The translations under genes and the position numbers were made by a program. The notes below the pieces were generated by a model. That model ran no database searches. It worked only from the letters and a program-made list of their open reading frames with translations, and had not been told where the DNA came from. Below, piece by piece: positions 9,966 through 40,890 of a stretch of DNA of 43,562 bases. The stretch is from an uncultured Mucilaginibacter sp. (GTDB lineage Bacteria; Bacteroidota; Bacteroidia; Sphingobacteriales; Sphingobacteriaceae). The stretch is from contig CAIWRU010000130.1 of assembly GCA_903915155.1 (NCBI GenBank), positions 1 to 43,562 of the forward strand, read 5' to 3'. Positions within the stretch are counted from its first letter, which is position 1. Every line of letters begins with the position of its first letter.

Positions 9966-11354
9966 ATGAACTACGATTTAATTGTTATAGGGTCGGGCCC
10001 TGGCGGGTATGTAGCCGCCATTCGCGCGTCTCAGTTAGGTTTAAAAACCGCAATAGTAGAAAGAGAATCACTGGGTGGCATATGCCTTAACTGGGGTTGT
10101 ATACCTACCAAGGCTTTATTAAAAAGCGCCCAGGTATTTGAATATTTAAACCACGCTGCCGATTATGGCATTAATGTACAAGGCGGCGAGGTTAATTTTG
10201 AAGCTATGGTAAAACGCAGCCGAGGTGTTGCCGATGGCATGAGCAAGGGCGTTCAGTTTTTAATGAAGAAAAATAAAATTGACGTAGTAAACGGCTTCGG
10301 AAAGCTTAAAGGCAATGGTGTTGTTGAAGTAAAAGGCAACGACGGGGCAGTACAGCAATTAACCGGCAAAAACATAATTGTAGCCACCGGCGGCCGCTCG
10401 CGCGAGTTGCCAAACATAAAACAAGATGGCGTTAAGGTTATAGGTTATCGCCAGGCAATGGTATTACCTAAGCAGCCAAAATCAATGATAGTGGTTGGCT
10501 CGGGTGCTATAGGTATTGAATTCGCTTATTTTTATAACTCTATCGGCACAAAAGTTACCGTGGTTGAATACCTTGATAATATAGTACCGCTTGAAGACGA
10601 AGAAGTATCGAAACAACTGGCACGCTTGTTAAAAAAGACAGGCATTAATATCATGACAGGCTCAAACGTGGAGTCGGTTGATTCATCGGGCGAAGTTTGC
10701 AAAGTGAATGTAAAAACCGCAAACGGGGTGGAAGCTATTGAAGCCGAGATCGTTTTATCAGCTGTAGGTATATCAACCAACCTTGAAGGCATTGGGCTTG
10801 AAGAAACAGGCGTTAAGACCGACAAGGGTAAAGTTTTGGTTGATGATTTTTACAAAACAAATATTGCAGGCGTTTATGCCATAGGCGATATTGTTAAAGG
10901 ACAGGCATTAGCCCACGTAGCATCGGCCGAAGGCATAATTTGTGTTGAAAAGATAGCTGGTCATAACCCTGAGCCGTTAAACTATAATAACATACCTGGC
11001 TGTACCTACTGCGCCCCTGAGATCGCTTCTGTAGGTTATACCGAAAAGGCTGCGAAAGAAGCAGGATATGAGTTAAAGGTAGGCAGGTTCCCATTCTCAG
11101 CATCGGGTAAAGCAAGTGCTGCGGGAGCTAAAGAAGGTTTTGTTAAACTGATATTTGATGCCAAATACGGCGAACTGTTAGGCGCACACATGCTGGGCCA
11201 TAACGTTACCGAAATGATAGCTGAAATAGTTACTGCACGCAAGCTGGAAACTACCGGTCATGAGATCATTAAATCGGTACACCCACACCCTACCATGAGT
11301 GAAGCTGTTATGGAAGCGGCCGCTGAGGCATATAGGGAATGTATACATTTGTAG
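9966..11354 (+). CDS. lpdA: Dihydrolipoyl dehydrogenase (E3)
   Basis: A 462-residue flavoprotein that re-oxidises dihydrolipoamide with NAD+ as the E3 component of 2-oxoacid dehydrogenase and glycine-cleavage complexes. Visible motifs: FAD-binding GSGPGGYVAA (residues 9-18), redox-active disulfide in GGICLNWGCIPTK (C40 and C45), NAD-binding VVGSGAIGIEFAYF, FAD-binding VYAIGDIVKG, and the catalytic His-Glu pair in HPHPTMSEA near the C-terminus. Length is normal. It is not next to E1 or E2 genes, so it is probably a shared E3. Its stop is followed after three bases by a foldback repeat that fills the gap to the next gene. Confidence 0.95.
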   Translation: MNYDLIVIGSGPGGYVAAIRASQLGLKTAIVERESLGGICLNWGCIPTKALLKSAQVFEYLNHAADYGINVQGGEVNFEAMVKRSRGVADGMSKGVQFLMKKNKIDVVNGFGKLKGNGVVEVKGNDGAVQQLTGKNIIVATGGRSRELPNIKQDGVKVIGYRQAMVLPKQPKSMIVVGSGAIGIEFAYFYNSIGTKVTVVEYLDNIVPLEDEEVSKQLARLLKKTGINIMTGSNVESVDSSGEVCKVNVKTANGVEAIEAEIVLSAVGISTNLEGIGLEETGVKTDKGKVLVDDFYKTNIAGVYAIGDIVKGQALAHVASAEGIICVEKIAGHNPEPLNYNNIPGCTYCAPEIASVGYTEKAAKEAGYELKVGRFPFSASGKASAAGAKEGFVKLIFDAKYGELLGAHMLGHNVTEMIAEIVTARKLETTGHEIIKSVHPHPTMSEAVMEAAAEAYRECIHL

Positions 11355-11357
11355 TTC

Positions 11358-11524
11358 GCCCCCCAGCCCCCTAAAGGGGGAGTAATAATTTAACGGGCTT
11401 TATAATAATGAACACCGAATATTGAATTTTGAATAATGAAGTTGTAGCTTCGGAGTTCGATAATTAATATTCGGTGTTTTATTTTTAACATAATTTAAAT
11501 TCCCCCTTTAGGGGGTTAGGGGGC
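11358..11524. repeat. Composite foldback element, 167 bp
   Basis: The outer arms (11358-11381 and 11501-11524) are 24-nt inverted repeats built on CCCCCTAAAGGGGG, with two mismatches. Inside them is a perfect 13-bp inverted repeat, AACACCGAATATT (11411-11423) and AATATTCGGTGTT (11466-11478). The element fills the gap from 3 nt after the lpdA stop to the base before the next ATG. It has no ORF. It resembles the miniature palindromic repeats common in Bacteroidota intergenic DNA. Confidence 0.8.
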
Positions 11525-12364
11525 ATGAACTTACACACGATAGATACCGGCTTTTTTAAATTAGATGGCGGCGCTATGTTTGGCGTGGTGCCGAAAGCCA
11601 TCTGGAACAAAACCAACCCTGCCGATGAAAATAACCTGTGTACATGGGCCATGCGTTGCCTGCTGGTTGAGGAGGGCGACAGGCTGATATTGATTGATAC
11701 CGGCATTGGCAACAAACAGGATGAACGGTTCTTTAGTCACTATTATTTGCATGGCGATGCTACGCTTGACAAATCTTTAAAAGCTAAAGGCTTCCATCGC
11801 GATGATATTACGGATGTATTTTTAACGCATTTGCATTTTGACCACGTTGGCGGCGCCGTTGTGCGCGATGGCGACAAACTGATCCCTGCGTTTAAAAATG
11901 CTACTTACTGGAGCACACAAAAGCACTGGGATTGGGCAGTTAATCCGAACGATCGCGAAAAGGCGTCGTTTTTAAAGGAAAATATTTTGCCAATACAGGA
12001 AAGCGGCCAATTGAAGTTTATTGATGGTCATGAGGGTGTAAGCTTTATGGGTAATATAAATGTAAAATTTGCTTACGGGCACACAGAATCAATGATGCTG
12101 CCATTGATAAATTATAAAGGCCGACAGATATTGTACATGGCCGACATGCTGCCATCTGTAGGCCACCTGCCTATGCCTTACGTAATGGCCTACGATATGT
12201 TCCCATTAAAAACTTTGACAGAAAAGAAGATTATTTTGTCGGAGGCCTTGGAAAAAGAATATATTTTGTATCTTGAACACGATCCGGTTAATGAGTGCTG
12301 TACGTTACAGCAAACCGAAAAAGGCATTAGACTAAAAGAAACTTTTAACCTAAACGTTATATAA
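11525..12364 (+). CDS. Metallo-beta-lactamase-fold hydrolase
   Basis: The 279-residue protein has the metal-binding motif THLHFDHVGG (H102, H104, D106, H107), then a downstream His in FAYGHTES, an Asp in LYMADMLP and a late His in YLEHDPV, which together would hold two metal ions. No signal peptide is seen, so it is probably cytoplasmic. The substrate cannot be read from sequence; relatives include lactonases, thioesterases and other hydrolases. The overall pattern (early DTGFFKLDGGAMFG and RCLLVEEGDRLILIDTGIG) is that of the broad MBL-fold hydrolase group common in Bacteroidota. The ATG abuts the right arm of the upstream foldback, so its promoter must lie inside the repeat or upstream in lpdA. 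Confidence 0.85.
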   Translation: MNLHTIDTGFFKLDGGAMFGVVPKAIWNKTNPADENNLCTWAMRCLLVEEGDRLILIDTGIGNKQDERFFSHYYLHGDATLDKSLKAKGFHRDDITDVFLTHLHFDHVGGAVVRDGDKLIPAFKNATYWSTQKHWDWAVNPNDREKASFLKENILPIQESGQLKFIDGHEGVSFMGNINVKFAYGHTESMMLPLINYKGRQILYMADMLPSVGHLPMPYVMAYDMFPLKTLTEKKIILSEALEKEYILYLEHDPVNECCTLQQTEKGIRLKETFNLNVI

Positions 12365-20674: not shown

Positions 20675-20766
20675 GTCATGCCGAACTTGTTTCGGCATCT
20701 CACGTGCTTTGTTGACAACATGCAGGTTAGTAGTCCTATGAGATGCTGAAACAAGTTCAGCATGAC
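20675..20766. repeat. REP-like pair of inverted hairpins
   Basis: Two 28-nt arms (20675-20702 and 20739-20766) are inverted copies with two differences. Each arm is itself a hairpin: ATGCCGAA/TTCGGCAT on the left and ATGCTGAA/TTCAGCAT on the right. The two differences are a compensatory C-G versus T-A pair inside each hairpin, so each arm hairpin keeps its pairing. The arrangement resembles bacterial REP/BIME units. It lies just after the ABC-F stop and might stop transcription. Confidence 0.8.
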
Positions 20767-20814: not shown

Positions 20815-22080
20815 ATGAATAAATATTTCAAATTGATCCTGCTGCTCTTTATCTCCGTAAAGTGCATTGCCCAACAAGGTCCTTACGATAATGATGTTTT
20901 AAACCCCGCTATAAAAAGCGTGATGTTTTATAACACTAAGAAGAACCCCTCCTTCCCTATTGTCAAACTGAACAGCGAAGAGCAGGTAGAATTAGAATTT
21001 GACGACCTGCGCGGCGGCTCGCGGTATTATTACTATACGATTGAGCATTGCGATGGCGACTGGAACTCATCGGGTTTATCGCCTACCGAGTATTTGCAGA
21101 ATTTTAACGAGGATAAGATACTGGATTATAGTTATTCGTCGGCTACGCTGCAAAAGTATACGCACTACACCATAAAGTTCCCGAATGATTATATCAAACC
21201 TAAAATTTCGGGCAATTATATACTAAAGGTTTACGAGGATGACGACCAGTCGAAAATGATATTGACAAGGCGGTTTTATGTTGTGAATCCGAAGCTTTCG
21301 GTATCGGCAGAGTTAGTCGCATCAAGCGATCAAAACCTGAGAGCAAGTAACCAGAAGATAAATTTCCAGATAAATTATGGCGGCCTTACCGTGCAAAATC
21401 CCAATCGTGATATACGTACATGGATAATGCAAAACGGTATTGATGCGACCGGGCAATTCACTACGCAGGCGCAATATATCCGTGGAAGCCAGCTTATCTA
21501 TGGCGATTTGAGCAGCAATGATTTTTCCGCGGGCAACGAGTTCCGGCATTTTGACACGCGTACCTTGCGGCTTAATTCTGACCGGGTATTGAAGATGATC
21601 CGCGATACTGCCAATACAGTTATTTTATTAACCGATGGCAGCCGCAACCTGCCCAATTATACTTTTTTGTATGACAATGACGGCAACTATTATGTGCTGA
21701 ACCAGGATGGCGCTGGCAACCCACCTACTGATGCCGATTATGCGCATATATATTTTAGTCTTGCTGCCGGGGGGAAAACCGGGGCTGATGGGTCGGCCTA
21801 TATTGTGGGGAAGTTTAATGACTACAAACTTGACGACCGTAGCAAACTGGATTATGATGACAAGGGCAAATTTTATACTCACCTGTTTTTAAAGCAGGGT
21901 GTATATGATTATGAATATGTTTGGGTGGATAACAATACCAAGAAGCCCGATTATATAGCTTTAGAAGGCAGCTATTTCGATACGGAGAACCGATATCAAA
22001 TATTGGTTTATTATAAACCGCCTACCGCTCGTTGGGAGGAATTGGTGGGATTTGAGGTGGTGAGTACAAAAACGAAATAG
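20815..22080 (+). CDS. Type IX secretion system plug protein (DUF5103 family)
   Basis: The 421-residue protein has a signal peptide ([20 protein letters not shown]) and the features of the DUF5103 family, now named T9SS plug protein. These are [17 protein letters not shown] near the N-terminus, [20 protein letters not shown] around residue 65, [18 protein letters not shown], and the C-terminal block [11 protein letters not shown] ... [20 protein letters not shown]. In the T9SS translocon the plug closes the periplasmic side of the SprA channel while it is idle. No other T9SS gene is nearby, which is normal since T9SS genes are scattered in Bacteroidota. The name rests on family recognition, not on a catalytic motif. 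Confidence 0.85.
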
Positions 22081-22087
22081 GAAACAG

Positions 22088-22179
22088 CCAGCCCCCTCTA
22101 AATCTCCCCCGGTTGGGGAGACTTAAAAAAAGCTGATTTTTTAAGCCCTCCCTTCCGGGGAGGGTTTGGGTGGGGCTGG
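22088..22179. repeat. Foldback element acting as shared terminator candidate
   Basis: CCAGCCCC (22088-22095) and GGGGCTGG (22172-22179) form the outer stem. Inside lie three hairpins: TCTCCCC/GGGGAGA (22103-22121), CTTAAAAAA/TTTTTTAAG (22122-22145) and CCCTCCC/GGAGGG (22146-22164). It fills the gap between two convergent genes and could end transcription from both sides. Confidence 0.75.
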
Positions 22180-22187
22180 TTTATTCT

Positions 22188-24485
22188 TTAAAAATCTCCT
22201 TTTACTGCTTCGACCGGTTTGGCAGGGCCTGTTTTCTCATTCAGGTTCGGCAGGTTAAAATTTCCTTTCAGGTATTGTTCTAAATAATCAAAGCTTACTT
22301 CATTTATTAAAAGGCGGCTTTGGCTGTTGTAGCCTGCACCATGTGCGCCCGGCGGATAGATGCGCAGATCAACATCCTTGCTGGCGTTAGTTAAGGCGGT
22401 TAACAGTTGCATGGTATTGGCCGGGTGTACGTTATCGTCGCTCATGGAGTGGATAAGCAGCAGGCGATCATGTAATCCCGCCGCATGTGCCATGTCTGAG
22501 CTGTTTTTGTAACCTGCGGCATTTTCTTCCGCAATACCCATGTAGCGTTCGGTGTAAATATCATCGTACAAACGCCAATCGGTTACCGGCGAGTTGGCTA
22601 TACCTACTTTAAATACACCAGGATGGGTAAGCAAGGTGTAGGTAGTGCTGTAACCACCATAACTGCCACCCATAATAGCCATTTTGGTGCTATCGGCAAA
22701 CGGCATGGAGCCTATGTAATGCGCGGTTTCGGCAAAATCATGGCTTTCCCATTTTCCTAGTTGCTTGTAAACAACCTTCATAAATGCGCTGCCGTAATTG
22801 GCTATGCCGCGGTTATTTACATCAACCACAATATAACCATTTTGCGCCAGCCATTGCGCCCAACTGCTTTCCTGGAATTTATTGAACACTCCATGCGATT
22901 CAGGGCCACCATAAACGGTAAATACTACCGGGTATTTTTTATTCGGGTCGAAATTGAAGGGTTTGATCATGTAACCATCCAAACCAACACCATCCGATGT
23001 GGTGAAGTGGAACAGTTCCGCAGGCGAATAGGCATGTGTGGCGATAAAATCGGCCACCTCTTTGTTGTCCTCAAGCGTTTGTAATACCTTACCCTGCGCA
23101 TCGCAAAGATCGACATGGGTTGGGGTGCTGGTATTGCTGTACTTATCGATATAATATTTTGTATTGGGTGACATATTGATATCATGATACCCATCTTGTT
23201 TCGACAGCTTTGTTTTATGACTGCCATCATATTTTATAGAGTAAAATTCCTGGTCGAGGCCCGATGATTCTGCTGATAAATAGTATATGGTTTTAGTCTC
23301 GGGGTTAATGCCGGTTACTTTTATCATGTCCCAGTTACCTTTTGTAACCTGGTTTATCAACTTGCCATCATAATTATAATGGTAGATGTGGTAATACCCG
23401 GAACGGTCGGATACCCAAAAGAAATCTTTAGTTTTCTCGGGAAAATACACCATATCGTTCACATTGGTATAAAAGTTTGATATGGCTACCCAGGTATCGT
23501 TCTTTTCTTCCAACACTACGTGGTGGTCGCCGGTTTTCACGTTGAAGAAGTATAGCTTCATATCGTTTTGGGCGCGGTTAAGGGTCATCACAGCCAGTAC
23601 ATCGGGGTTACTTGTCCAGTAAATGCGGGGGATATAAAAATCGCCGGTTTCATCGGGCGAAAGCCATATCTTTTTGCCTGAGCTTACATCAACCACACCA
23701 ATTTTAACTTTTGGATTAGCATCGCCTACCTGTGGCAAAGCAATATGTACAATATTAGGGTGTTGGCCTTCGAAGTTGGTCATTTGAAAGTCGGGCACCT
23801 TGCTATCATCAAATTGCCAGTAAGCAATGTATTTATTATCAGGCGACCAGTTCCAGGCTTTGCTTACTTCCAGTTCTTCTTCGTAAACCCAATCGCCATG
23901 GCCATTAAAAATGCCATTCTCGCCGCCACTGGCATCATTTGTTAACTGGGTTTCTTTATCGTTTGCAAAGTTATATACGTACATGTTGCCATCGCGCTCA
24001 ATGCCTACCATTGAACCATCGGGAGAAAGTTCGGCTGAGCGGGCGTTTTTTGCCGCTACTTTTAGCTGTTTGGCAGCAACGTCATAAACAAAATAATCCG
24101 ACACACCTGAACGACGGTATTTTTTACGGAAATTATTGCGAAAAACAATGTGCTTTGAATCGTGCGACCATTGGAACTCATCATACTTAAAAGCGGAATC
24201 GGAGCCAGGGAATTTAAGGTCGGCATTATTGAAGATAACATCTTCTTTTAGCGTAGCGGGATCTTTGGAACTGATACCGCCCTGCGTGTTGAAAGAATAT
24301 TGGTCGCCATTGCTTATCCAGTCGACACCGTGCGGACCTGATTTGCCGGCCAGTTTTCGGCCTGTGCGCATGGCTTCTTCAAGGCTGGAATACTGAGTTT
24401 TATTTTGAGCGATGGTAAACGAGGGCAATAAACAACCCGAGACACAAAGGCACAGGAAAATGCCTTTTAAAGAATTATATTTCAT
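22188..24485 (-). CDS. DPP-IV-like S9 family serine peptidase
   Basis: The 765-residue exported peptidase of the prolyl oligopeptidase family probably removes X-Pro dipeptides from peptide N-termini in the periplasm. It has a signal sequence (MKYNSLKGIFLCLCVSGC...), where VSGC could alternatively be a lipobox. An eight-bladed-propeller-type N-terminal domain carries the DPP-IV substrate-binding motif GHGDWVYEEELEV. The C-terminal alpha/beta hydrolase has the nucleophile Ser at about 608 in MGGSYGGYS, the Asp region HSMSDDNVHPANT and the catalytic His in PPGAHGAGY. The nucleophile motif reads GGSYGG rather than the usual GWSYGG, a mild change. Length is typical. It is convergent with the T9SS plug gene. 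Confidence 0.93.
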   Translation of the reverse strand: MKYNSLKGIFLCLCVSGCLLPSFTIAQNKTQYSSLEEAMRTGRKLAGKSGPHGVDWISNGDQYSFNTQGGISSKDPATLKEDVIFNNADLKFPGSDSAFKYDEFQWSHDSKHIVFRNNFRKKYRRSGVSDYFVYDVAAKQLKVAAKNARSAELSPDGSMVGIERDGNMYVYNFANDKETQLTNDASGGENGIFNGHGDWVYEEELEVSKAWNWSPDNKYIAYWQFDDSKVPDFQMTNFEGQHPNIVHIALPQVGDANPKVKIGVVDVSSGKKIWLSPDETGDFYIPRIYWTSNPDVLAVMTLNRAQNDMKLYFFNVKTGDHHVVLEEKNDTWVAISNFYTNVNDMVYFPEKTKDFFWVSDRSGYYHIYHYNYDGKLINQVTKGNWDMIKVTGINPETKTIYYLSAESSGLDQEFYSIKYDGSHKTKLSKQDGYHDINMSPNTKYYIDKYSNTSTPTHVDLCDAQGKVLQTLEDNKEVADFIATHAYSPAELFHFTTSDGVGLDGYMIKPFNFDPNKKYPVVFTVYGGPESHGVFNKFQESSWAQWLAQNGYIVVDVNNRGIANYGSAFMKVVYKQLGKWESHDFAETAHYIGSMPFADSTKMAIMGGSYGGYSTTYTLLTHPGVFKVGIANSPVTDWRLYDDIYTERYMGIAEENAAGYKNSSDMAHAAGLHDRLLLIHSMSDDNVHPANTMQLLTALTNASKDVDLRIYPPGAHGAGYNSQSRLLINEVSFDYLEQYLKGNFNLPNLNEKTGPAKPVEAVKGDF

Positions 24486-37979: not shown

Positions 37980-40733
37980 TTAGCAAGCCAAAGTAGATAA
38001 GTTGTCTTCTAGTATCTTTAATTTGGCCTCGGCATCGGCCTTTTTGTTTAACTCATTCTCAATAATTTCGGGTTTTGCATTGCTCATAAAGCGCTCATTT
38101 GTAAGCTTTGCGTTAACCGATTTTAAAAATCCGTCGAGATATTCCTTCTCTTTTCTCAATCGTTCGCATTCAACAGCGGGGTCGATGGTTTCAGCCAGCG
38201 GTATATAAAACTCATCCGTATGCACCGTAAAGTTAATGGCACCGCTTATTTTATCATCAGTAACGCTTAAACTGCTTACGTTTCCAAGCTTGGTAATTAA
38301 GGCTTCGTACACCTTATAGTTTTGACCTGCGGCGTTTTTTATAAACAGATCTAATATTTCTTTCGGAGAAATTTGTTTTGTATTGCGAATGTTACGGATT
38401 TGTGAAATTAACTGTTTTACGTTCTCCACATCCGTTAATAATCGGGCATTAATTTCCCCATTAATTGGCAGTTGGGCAACAATGCAGCAATCGGTTACAC
38501 TACGCTCTCCAAACAATTCATCATGCCATAATTCTTCGGTAATGAACGGGGTGAACGGGTGAAGTATTTTCAATATATTTCCAAAATATTCCACGGTTTT
38601 GAGGTATGTAGCCCGGTCTATGGGTTTTTGATAGGCAGGCTTTATCATCTCCAAATACCAGGCGCAGAAGTCGTCCCAAACCAGTTTATAAGTGGCCATT
38701 AGGGCTTCTGATAAACGGTATTGTTTAAAGTTATCTTCTATCTCAATTAAGGCCTGGCTAAACCTGCTCTCGAACCAGTCGATTGCTACCTGGTTGGGGT
38801 TGGCAAGGGTGTCATCCACCTCCCAGCCTTTCACCAATTTAAAGGCGTTCCATATTTTATTGGTAAAGTTGCGGCCCTGCTCGCAATAGCTTTCGTCAAA
38901 CATCAGGTCGTTACCAGCGGGCGAGCAAAGCAACATCCCTACTCTAACACCATCCGCGCCAAATTTTTCGATCAGTTCAATCGGATCGGGAGAATTACCA
39001 AGCGATTTCGACATTTTGCGACCCAGCTTATCGCGAACGATGCCTGTAAGGTAAACATTCCTGAAAGGCAGGTCGTTTTTAAACTCGTGACCGGCCATTA
39101 TCATTCGTGCCACCCAAAAAAATAATATCTCGGGTGCGGTAACCAGGTCGTTGGTTGGGTAATAGTAGTTGATATCAGCATTATCCGGGTCTTTGAATCC
39201 ATCGAATACCGATATGGGCCAAAGCCATGATGAAAACCAGGTATCAAGCACATCTTCATCCTGGTGAAGTTGTTCTTCAACAAGGCGTCTGGCTGTTGCT
39301 TCATTGAATACCCTTTTATTTACCAATGGAACAAAGTGTTCAATTGCTTCTTCTCTTGTCTTACATATACAAAAACGCTCTATCGGATCAAGATGTATCA
39401 ATATTTCACCTGTCGGCTCAACTATAGAGAAATCGGGGAAAATATACCAGGCCGGTATCTGCTGCCCCCACCATAGTTGGCGACTGATAGTCCAATCGTG
39501 AACATTTTCCATCCAGTGTTTGTAGGTATTGATGAACTTGTCAGGAATAAGCTTTATATCGCCATTCAAAACATAATCCAGCGCAGGTTTAGCCATTTCC
39601 TCCATCTTGCAAAACCATTGCATAGATAATTTTGGCTCGATAACCGCATCTGTACGTTCGGAGAAGCCTATTTGAGATTTGTATTCTTCAACTTTTTCCA
39701 GCGCGCCTGCTTCTTCCAATAACGGAACTATCTTTTTACGTGCTGCAAAACGGTCCTCGCCCACTAATATCTGCGCCTTTTCGTTCAGCGTTCCATCATC
39801 GTTCAAAATATCAATAACAGGCAGGTTGTGCTTTATGCCTAACTCATAGTCATTTAGATCGTGTGCAGGTGTTACTTTTAAACAACCCGTACCAAAATCC
39901 ATGGTAACGTAATCATCAAGTATAACAGGTATTTCACGGCCAATTAACGGGATAAGCACTTTTTTGCCATGCAAATGCAAATACCGCTCGTCATTTGGAT
40001 TGATACAGATAGCTGCATCAGCCATAATGGTTTCGGGACGGGTTGTAGCTATTGTCAAGTAGCTAGTAGCTAGTATCAAGTCGCTAGATTTTTGTGCTTC
40101 GTCTTGATACTTGCTACTCGATACTTGATACTTAATATAGTAAAGCTTCTGATTAACCTCTTTCCTGATAACCTCCTCATCGCTTACCGCAGTTTTACCT
40201 TGCGGGTCCCAATTCACCATGCGTACACCGCGATAGATGAGGCCCTTTTTATGCAGGTGGATGAAAGTGTCGATAACCGCTTCGCTCAGGTCATCATCCA
40301 TGGTAAAACGGGTGCGGTCCCAATCGCATGAGGCACCTAACTTTTTAAGTTGATCTAATATAATGCCGCCGTATTTTTCCTTCCATTCCCAGGCGTAGGC
40401 CAAAAACTCTTCGCGGGTAAGGTCTTTTTTAGCTATACCGCGTTCCTTAAGCATGGCAACCACCTTTGCCTCGGTAGCGATACTGGCGTGGTCGGTTCCC
40501 GGTACCCAGCAGGCATTTTTACCCTGCATGCGGGCGCGGCGGATGAGCACATCCTGTATGGTATTATTCAGCATATGGCCCATGTGCAAAACGCCGGTAA
40601 CATTTGGTGGTGGCATCACAATGGTATAAGGCTCGCGCCCATCGGGCACCGACTTAAAAAACTTGTGCTGTAACCAATAGCTGTACCATTTATCCTCTGC
40701 GTCTTTGGGCTGATATGTTTTAGAAATACTCAT
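37980..40733 (-). CDS. valS: Valyl-tRNA synthetase with in-frame foldback insertion
   Basis: The 917-residue class I synthetase charges tRNA-Val. It has the HIGH-type motif HMGH (residues 50-53) in PPPNVTGVLHMGH, the editing motif ATTRPETIM, the KMSKS motif (573-577) and a C-terminal coiled coil. At about residues 203-226, just before TTRPET in the CP1 editing domain, the sequence has an extra stretch (SSSKYQDEAQKSSDLILATS) where family members have only a short link between KLYYIKY and LTIATTRPET. This stretch is encoded by the foldback at 40057-40126. The frame is intact and all motifs are present, so the enzyme is probably functional. The ATG at 40733 is preferred over TTG at 40742. TATTTTTG (40740-40747, minus strand) ends 6 nt upstream. 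Confidence 0.95.
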   Translation of the reverse strand: MSISKTYQPKDAEDKWYSYWLQHKFFKSVPDGREPYTIVMPPPNVTGVLHMGHMLNNTIQDVLIRRARMQGKNACWVPGTDHASIATEAKVVAMLKERGIAKKDLTREEFLAYAWEWKEKYGGIILDQLKKLGASCDWDRTRFTMDDDLSEAVIDTFIHLHKKGLIYRGVRMVNWDPQGKTAVSDEEVIRKEVNQKLYYIKYQVSSSKYQDEAQKSSDLILATSYLTIATTRPETIMADAAICINPNDERYLHLHGKKVLIPLIGREIPVILDDYVTMDFGTGCLKVTPAHDLNDYELGIKHNLPVIDILNDDGTLNEKAQILVGEDRFAARKKIVPLLEEAGALEKVEEYKSQIGFSERTDAVIEPKLSMQWFCKMEEMAKPALDYVLNGDIKLIPDKFINTYKHWMENVHDWTISRQLWWGQQIPAWYIFPDFSIVEPTGEILIHLDPIERFCICKTREEAIEHFVPLVNKRVFNEATARRLVEEQLHQDEDVLDTWFSSWLWPISVFDGFKDPDNADINYYYPTNDLVTAPEILFFWVARMIMAGHEFKNDLPFRNVYLTGIVRDKLGRKMSKSLGNSPDPIELIEKFGADGVRVGMLLCSPAGNDLMFDESYCEQGRNFTNKIWNAFKLVKGWEVDDTLANPNQVAIDWFESRFSQALIEIEDNFKQYRLSEALMATYKLVWDDFCAWYLEMIKPAYQKPIDRATYLKTVEYFGNILKILHPFTPFITEELWHDELFGERSVTDCCIVAQLPINGEINARLLTDVENVKQLISQIRNIRNTKQISPKEILDLFIKNAAGQNYKVYEALITKLGNVSSLSVTDDKISGAINFTVHTDEFYIPLAETIDPAVECERLRKEKEYLDGFLKSVNAKLTNERFMSNAKPEIIENELNKKADAEAKLKILEDNLSTLAC
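40057..40126. repeat. Foldback repeat inserted in frame within valS
   Basis: AAGTAGCTAGTAGC... (40057-40080) and CTTGATACTTGCTACTCG... (40103-40126) are 24-nt arms that match at 21 positions as inverted repeats, with a 22-nt centre. Short units such as AAGTATC and TAGC recur inside the arms. The sequence style is that of intergenic foldbacks, not of valS coding DNA, yet the frame stays open across it. Confidence 0.8.
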
Positions 40734-40752: not shown

Positions 40753-40890
40753 TTAGTTCATAGTTGATGGTTCATGGTTCATAGTAATTATCAAATTGTT
40801 CGTGGTTGATGGTTTATGGTTCTTGATGAATAGGGTAAAATAACTGAACCCGCTTTTACTATGATCTATCAACTATTATCCATGAACTAA
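40753..40890. repeat. Imperfect foldback of TTCATAGTTGATGG-type units
   Basis: A left arm of about 35 nt (40753-40787, units of TTCATAG, TTGATGG, TTCATGG) is an imperfect inverted copy of the right arm (40856-40890), which ends CCATGAACTAA. Similar units recur between the arms (around 40801-40825). The element makes up most of the first 160 bases of the gap; from 40891 to 41111 I see only AT-rich sequence and a possible TACCTTTA box at 41081 for the next gene. Confidence 0.6.

Follow-up and report, generated by a model that had tools for sequence, protein, structure and literature searches.

The window analysed here is the whole stretch of 43,562 nucleotides, taken from a Mucilaginibacter genome of 3.73 Mb in 222 contigs. 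Its features of interest are collected in Table 1. The valS product scores above the NCBIfam cut-off for valine--tRNA ligase, and the gene contains an inverted repeat whose best pairing is at 25 of the 29 positions of its arms. An earlier note, made from the sequence alone, had placed here two arms of 24 nt (40057-40080 and 40103-40126) matching at 21 positions and encoding ValRS residues 203-226 in an uninterrupted frame. This holds exactly, and the reading frame stays open through the foldback. The same note estimated that the insert adds about 20 residues. This must be corrected to about 15 (26 residues versus 11 in the short state of the loop).

Table 1. Coordinates of valS and of the heptamer foldbacks in and around it
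Feature	Position	Strand	Remark
valS, valine--tRNA ligase, 917 aa	37980..40733	-	only full-length valS match in the genome
In-frame heptamer-armed foldback, ValRS residues ~202-227	40055..40128	-	loop just before ATTRPET
Foldback 5' arm, mRNA sense: TCAAGTATCGAGTAGCAAGTATCAAGACG	40100..40128	-	
Foldback 3' arm, mRNA sense: CGACTTGATACTAGCTACTAGCTACTTGA	40055..40083	-	
Intergenic foldback, heptamer family GTTCATA/GTTGATG	40753..40890	.	just upstream of valS
Intergenic foldback, third heptamer family AAAGTCA/AAAGTAA	35487..35594	.	arms 100% complementary

The valS foldback is not a product of chance, because the RNA fold of this strand reaches -28.7 kcal/mol, against -12.8 (sd 2.7) for 200 dinucleotide shuffles (z -5.86), and because none of 3000 synonymous recodings of the insert peptide attains the 21/24 arm match (the maximum is 20). 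An alignment with Thermus ValRS (1gax) shows a gap of a size similar to the insert, and the Thermus enzyme has a bare turn at this position. AlphaFold2 places residues 208-222 between two strands with a pLDDT below 50. This model is weak (mean pLDDT 71.4, pTM 0.59) and only the position of the insert has been taken from it. By inference, the enzyme merely tolerates the insert, which would be a disordered extension that takes no part in catalysis.

The window also carries foldbacks of other types. One that is C/G-rich (GCCCCCCAGCCCCCTAAAGGGGGA...), at 11358-11524, has nearly the same extent as the gap that separates ORFs 9966-11354 and 11525-12364, and encloses another foldback (11411-11478). 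Intergenic foldbacks of other families are located at 20675-20766 and 22081-22186, the latter bridging the gap between ORFs 20815-22080 and 22188-24485.

Dispersal and architecture of the repeat

The repeat is dispersed in its own genome. With the insert region as query, 53 HSPs were obtained at E ≤ 10. At E ≤ 0.05 there are 20 places, of which 11 are intergenic, 8 lie at ORF boundaries and one, valS itself, is inside a gene. The view in the earlier note that this foldback is of a style found between genes is upheld, most copies sitting outside genes, and the further copies inside and between genes for which it proposed to look are numerous, chiefly intergenic or at ORF edges. In the copies that we have read, the arms measure about 32 nt and approximate TTAGTATCAAGTAGTTAGTATCAAGTATCAAGA on one side and the reverse complement on the other. 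The spacer between them (about 8 to 85 nt) is not the same in every copy, and some copies consist of a single arm. In the class to which we assign the repeat, each element has two arms of about four degenerate heptamers, GTNNNNA... in this family with the right arm its reverse complement, and a centre that is short and variable.

A census of inverted repeats covered 832,564 bases (432,564 from the own genome and 400,000 from a relative), 87% of them coding. The sample is not random: the own contigs were taken from hit lists and the relative's stretch surrounds its valS. It yielded 29 periodic inverted repeats, with a best lag of 7 in 22 cases, 8 in six and 4 in one. The period-7 foldbacks are mostly intergenic (12) or at ORF edges (9), only that of valS being inside a gene, and in 19 of the 22 the left arm has more G than C and the right arm more C than G. 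Such a simple census misses degenerate copies, including a weaker copy in aroA of the own genome that is present in the same sample (L187).

We collected 27 arms from the own genome, counting the ValRS locus itself. In 13 of them no stop interrupts the frame that ValRS uses; the other two frames are open in 1 and 5. Read in the ValRS frame, intergenic arms give YQVVSIKYQ or YQVASIKYQ, compared with YQVSSSKYQ in ValRS. The repeat therefore offers one usable frame. The suggestion that the element has a frame that can be translated is thus supported only in part, since translation of roughly half the arms would still run into a stop.

Repeat-like loops in valS and other genes of relatives

We have parsed 119 distinct valS loops from relatives, after removal of 12 duplicates. 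The count excludes L016 (loop not found; the frame holds one TAA) and eight unparsed loci titled Pontibacter (L160, 161, 163, 165-168, 170). The empty, or short, state has about 11 residues, and 51 of the 119 loops are shorter than 16 aa. Loops of 16 aa or more were tested (n = 66; L110 was added later and is outside this set). Foldbacks were called significant when equalled in at most 1/100 synonymous recodings and at most 1/100 codon shuffles, and period 7 when equalled in at most 2/500 shuffles. One or both signals were found in 48 loops: foldback in 29, period 7 in 41 and both in 22. The remaining 20 longer loops of the 119 have no significant signal or are outside the test. As a control within the same 119 genes, inverted repeats with a score of at least 12 were counted: in 18 species such a repeat overlaps the loop (7,359 loop bases), and the remainder of the genes contains 10 in all (318,759 bases in total).

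The loop DNA falls into families: KYQ (that of the window), SPE, DEL, KGE, DGK (with a period of about 8 nt) and several singletons. These were named by hand from the peptides because objective clustering failed: single linkage merged 45 of 68 loops, the families intergrading. Some loops contain a single arm (L121, L123, L127, L130), and L105 has a native-like GEGA between its arms. In two species (L071 and L113) the loop is of DGK type with a longer conserved centre, EKPQVVIGDDEKQEVIS, common to both. According to the earlier note, an equally long insert of unrelated DNA in all close relatives would mark an ordinary loop and not a mobile repeat. The outcome was not one that the note had foreseen: many relatives do have equally long inserts with different DNA, but that DNA again forms a foldback or an array of heptamers, belonging to a different family.

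We also drew 119 genomes class-wide. Apart from the window, the 29 best loci gave 22 parsed loops of relatives, 21 of them with 11-12 residues. Of nine class-wide loops chosen for their apparent length, two (L277, L278) show a significant foldback and three (L245, L274, L279) period 7, while L275, L280, L281 and L282 fail both tests, as does L164. The foldbacks of L277 and L278, from two distant Bacteroidia, occupy the same valS position but represent another type, C-rich/G-rich. The idea of phylum-wide foldbacks at this loop was rejected, only some of the nine chosen loops passing.

Families differ between sister species. L025 (KYQ) and L035 (SPE) share 84% nucleotide identity over the gene and 48% over the loop; for L023 (DEL) and L029 (KGE) the values are 86% and 39%. 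A ValRS tree from which the loop was left out requires at least 22 changes between occupied and short states (99 labelled rows; shuffled mean 33) and at least 45 changes of hand-named family (107 rows; shuffled mean 53). Both counts are below their shuffled means, which implies some inheritance together with much turnover. They are indicative only because 38 of the 115 inner branches of this FastTree tree are open. L072 was omitted from the tree, and 11 of its rows have no family label.

The family present in valS is also commoner elsewhere in the same genome, clearly so for KYQ and DGK and weakly for SPE. At least two further KYQ matches occur in 7/8 users versus 17/53 non-users (Mann-Whitney p = 0.0009), and at least two further DGK matches in 6/6 versus 27/55 (p = 0.001, same test). 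For SPE the figures are 7/12 and 21/49 (Mann-Whitney p = 0.017; Fisher p = 0.26). One KYQ user, G004, has no match beyond valS in its genome. The counts are HSPs and are lower bounds. One HSP was subtracted per user for valS, although valS can yield a pair, and the non-user group takes in some genomes in which valS was not read; only these three families were compared.

Arrays also change by whole units. L027 lacks 21 nt (whole heptamers) present in the left arm of L032, and arrays elsewhere show an indel of 28 nt (GTTCATG) or of 19+9 nt (TTTGAGA). In the DEL family dN/dS is 0.09, 0.10 and 0.26 (dS was computable for three of six pairs) and three of the four members (L024, L031, L093) have no significant foldback; here the peptide is conserved as the foldback decays. 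Other pairs give 0.15-0.99 (SPE), 0.20-0.47 (DGK) and 0.65-1.18 (KYQ), with 0.02 for one half-element KYQ pair. These segments are short and the pairs may represent separate arrivals.

Recurrence in frame is not confined to valS. That valS is the sole gene with such copies had been suggested by a KYQ peptide search and by the census, and is ruled out by an SPE peptide search, which retrieved long stop-free frames outside valS. Nine of these were read. They carry inserts of the same kind in a DEXH helicase (3 species), aroA (3), lysA (2) and sucB (1), and within the helicase, within aroA and within lysA the insert position is shared between species. One member of each group is named over the NCBIfam cut-off (ligase-associated DEXH box helicase, aroA, lysA, 2-oxoglutarate dehydrogenase E2). 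Of 30 aroA loci fetched, 23 were parsed. All have loops of 25-45 residues, of several families, with period 7 in 22 (≤7/300 shuffles) and foldback in 14 (≤1/100 recodings). The own genome has the SPE family in aroA and the KYQ family in valS.

A blind scan of 663 sampled ORFs gave five period-7 windows: valS and aroA of the own genome, valS of the relative, and two that lie close to the beginning of other ORFs. Period 7 was combined with an inverted repeat scoring at least 12 in the own valS and aroA only. Of the control lags, 9 yields two such windows, both near ORF starts, hydrophobic or T-rich and not heptamer-like, and 5, 6, 8 and 10 yield none. A second region of valS, between IPAWY and DEDV, could be parsed in 70 of the 119 species and has tandem heptamers in 21 of them (lag-7 identity of at least 0.6 in the best 42 nt, without a shuffle control). 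A weak KYQ match in an ORF of 354 aa (L299) was dismissed, no heptamers being visible by eye. Another ORF, of 345 aa and without an NCBIfam match (L298:674-1708, genome G050), contains KYQ- and DGK-type heptamer stretches in frame; DGK matches also occur near the ends of other contigs of G050.

Mobility, rival explanations and the preferred reading

One intergenic site was compared in twelve genomes, 8 of which have a GATGTGCA-type foldback or arm (families were assigned by eye). G029 carries the GATGTGCA family at this site, its close relative G026 the DGK family and G018 another; G052 is ambiguous and G031 has lost most of the element. Families thus replace one another at fixed sites between genes as well as within them.

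A 113-nt heptamer foldback that distinguishes G013 and G031 (94-95% nucleotide identity) was considered as a fresh insertion with an empty site. We reject this in favour of a deletion in G031, because of the prevalence of the GATGTGCA type in the twelve genomes and because G031 keeps a terminal heptamer-like stretch. In a second pair, about 200 kb compared revealed no clean gain of a heptamer foldback. Hence the pairs compared offer no case of a recent insertion with its empty site preserved, and no target duplication was identified, the sole clean presence/absence case being this deletion. Movement is inferred from the distribution of copies; no event has been caught. Nor was a gene that mobilises heptamer foldbacks identified. 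The own genome has five Y1-transposase (PF01797) matches over the cut-off, and none of these loci (L009-L013, 3.2-3.3 kb each) has heptamer arms; three have other inverted repeats of at least 18 nt and two have none. Those of L010, L012 and L013 have their own non-heptamer palindromes nearby (for example, GGCTGAAGCC... and CACACGCGACACGCGTG...).

The main rival, which remains possible, is an origin in place without any dispersal: slippage would create an array from native codons and template switching during replication would copy an arm to its inverted partner. In its favour, the codons that natively specify YIKYQ may already look like the KYQ heptamer, the array differences described above amount to whole units, and the single-arm loops and the GEGA of L105 also fit. 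Against it, closely similar arms of the same families recur in valS, aroA, lysA, helicase and sucB of different species, the same families are found elsewhere in the genomes, and the valS family tends to track the genome's own pool. That the element is of REP/RAYT type and moved by the genome's Y1 transposases is unlikely: the transposases exist and the palindromes are small, but the absence of heptamer arms from all five of their loci is against it.

Two further explanations fare worse. If the hairpin were kept as an RNA element of the valS mRNA (for pausing, stability or autoregulation), its stable fold and a position common to many species would be accounted for. This is nevertheless very improbable given the many short loops, and given that most DEL members lack a significant foldback while their dN/dS, where computable, is low. 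An ordinary hypervariable loop whose foldback appearance is due to chance or codon bias would explain the short loops and the longer ones without signal, and loops at a tip often vary in length, but it is practically excluded by the recoding result, by the proportion of tested loops that are significant and by strong DNA matches elsewhere in the genome.

Our preferred reading is that the insert is a copy of a genome-wide class of heptamer-armed foldback repeats, and for the origin from a repeat we regard this as very likely. The explanation as a whole is likely: these are non-autonomous foldbacks of Sphingobacteriaceae, tolerated at a few protein sites, whose families replace one another. Copies lie mainly outside genes. 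A small number of sites in housekeeping proteins, among them the hairpin loop that precedes ATTRPET in ValRS, would tolerate them, so that copies in phase and free of stops may survive there. Over time one family would be lost at a site and another would take its place. The route of mobilisation is an inference, and on balance we would lean slightly against it: copies may spread in trans, either by way of single-stranded hairpins or by hairpin-guided repair or conversion. The mobilisation step would read structure more than exact sequence, which is favoured because families with little common sequence share period, polarity and sites. Slippage and template switching may well act on copies after their arrival.

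There is also a bolder reading, which we put forward only as a possibility: an unrecognised process in Bacteroidota may write foldbacks with a 7-nt (sometimes 8-nt) period and G-to-C polarity at preferred positions. The hairpin architecture and not the sequence would be recognised, and unrelated families could then replace each other both between genes, as with G029 and G026, and inside housekeeping genes such as valS and aroA. If true, this would be a recurrent source of in-frame peptide segments, some of them fixed under purifying selection.

Comparison with known systems

In the open-access literature searched (including PMC2229807), we found no description, for Bacteroidota, of heptamer-armed foldbacks or of palindromic repeats lying in frame; the latter are treated there, as far as bacteria are concerned, mainly as a feature of Rickettsia. 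The present case adds another phylum, fixed positions in housekeeping enzymes, heptamer arms, interchangeable families and dozens of natural replicates. This makes it possible to test how repeats spread without a known mobiliser and by what steps raw repeat DNA is turned into conserved protein. Annotators and phylogeneticists should not take it for granted that such loops are homologous in sister species.

REP/REPIN elements with their RAYT are likewise small palindromes with many copies, mainly intergenic. The foldbacks differ from them in the lack of heptamer arms at the Y1 loci and of a single conserved tag across families: of the REP foot tag GTAG/CGTC, KYQ arms hold GTAG internally, and the SPE, KGE, DGK and GATGTGCA families have no common tag (by eye). 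MITEs (ERIC, RUP, Correia and others) are also non-autonomous, with terminal inverted repeats, and are sometimes read in frame (PMC10969869), but the foldbacks have no terminal sequence conserved across families; no target duplication was seen, though the one clean presence/absence case is the deletion in G031. TAACTGA and other heptanucleotide repeats share the heptamer period and intergenic location and have been reported for five Bacteroidetes as well (PMC4679880). They are direct repeats of one exact heptamer, whereas here the arms are inverted and belong to many degenerate heptamer families. The coding palindromes of Nematomorpha mitochondria are inverted repeats inside protein genes that are gained and lost between species (PMC6649704); in contrast to the heptamer foldbacks they are mitochondrial, perfect and long, and are thought to be actively maintained.

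A close likeness is that to Rickettsia palindromic elements (RPEs), which the earlier note had proposed for another phylum and an essential enzyme. This is supported, the repeats being dispersed and in frame in several unrelated housekeeping genes. As with RPEs, these are palindromes with several families per genome and many copies, and their identity as repeats is lost with time (PMC10969869, PMC3733652, PMC6649704). The likeness is one of behaviour and is drawn by analogy, without sequence comparison with described RPE families. One RPE feature, a large share of copies within ORFs, is not met: a review gives nearly half of RPE copies in genes, against a small part of the copies sampled here (1/22 census foldbacks plus aroA, and 1/20 places for the window's family). 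The foldbacks are further distinguished from RPEs by their occurrence in Bacteroidota, by degenerate heptamer arms around variable centres and by the presence of different families at one protein site in sister species.
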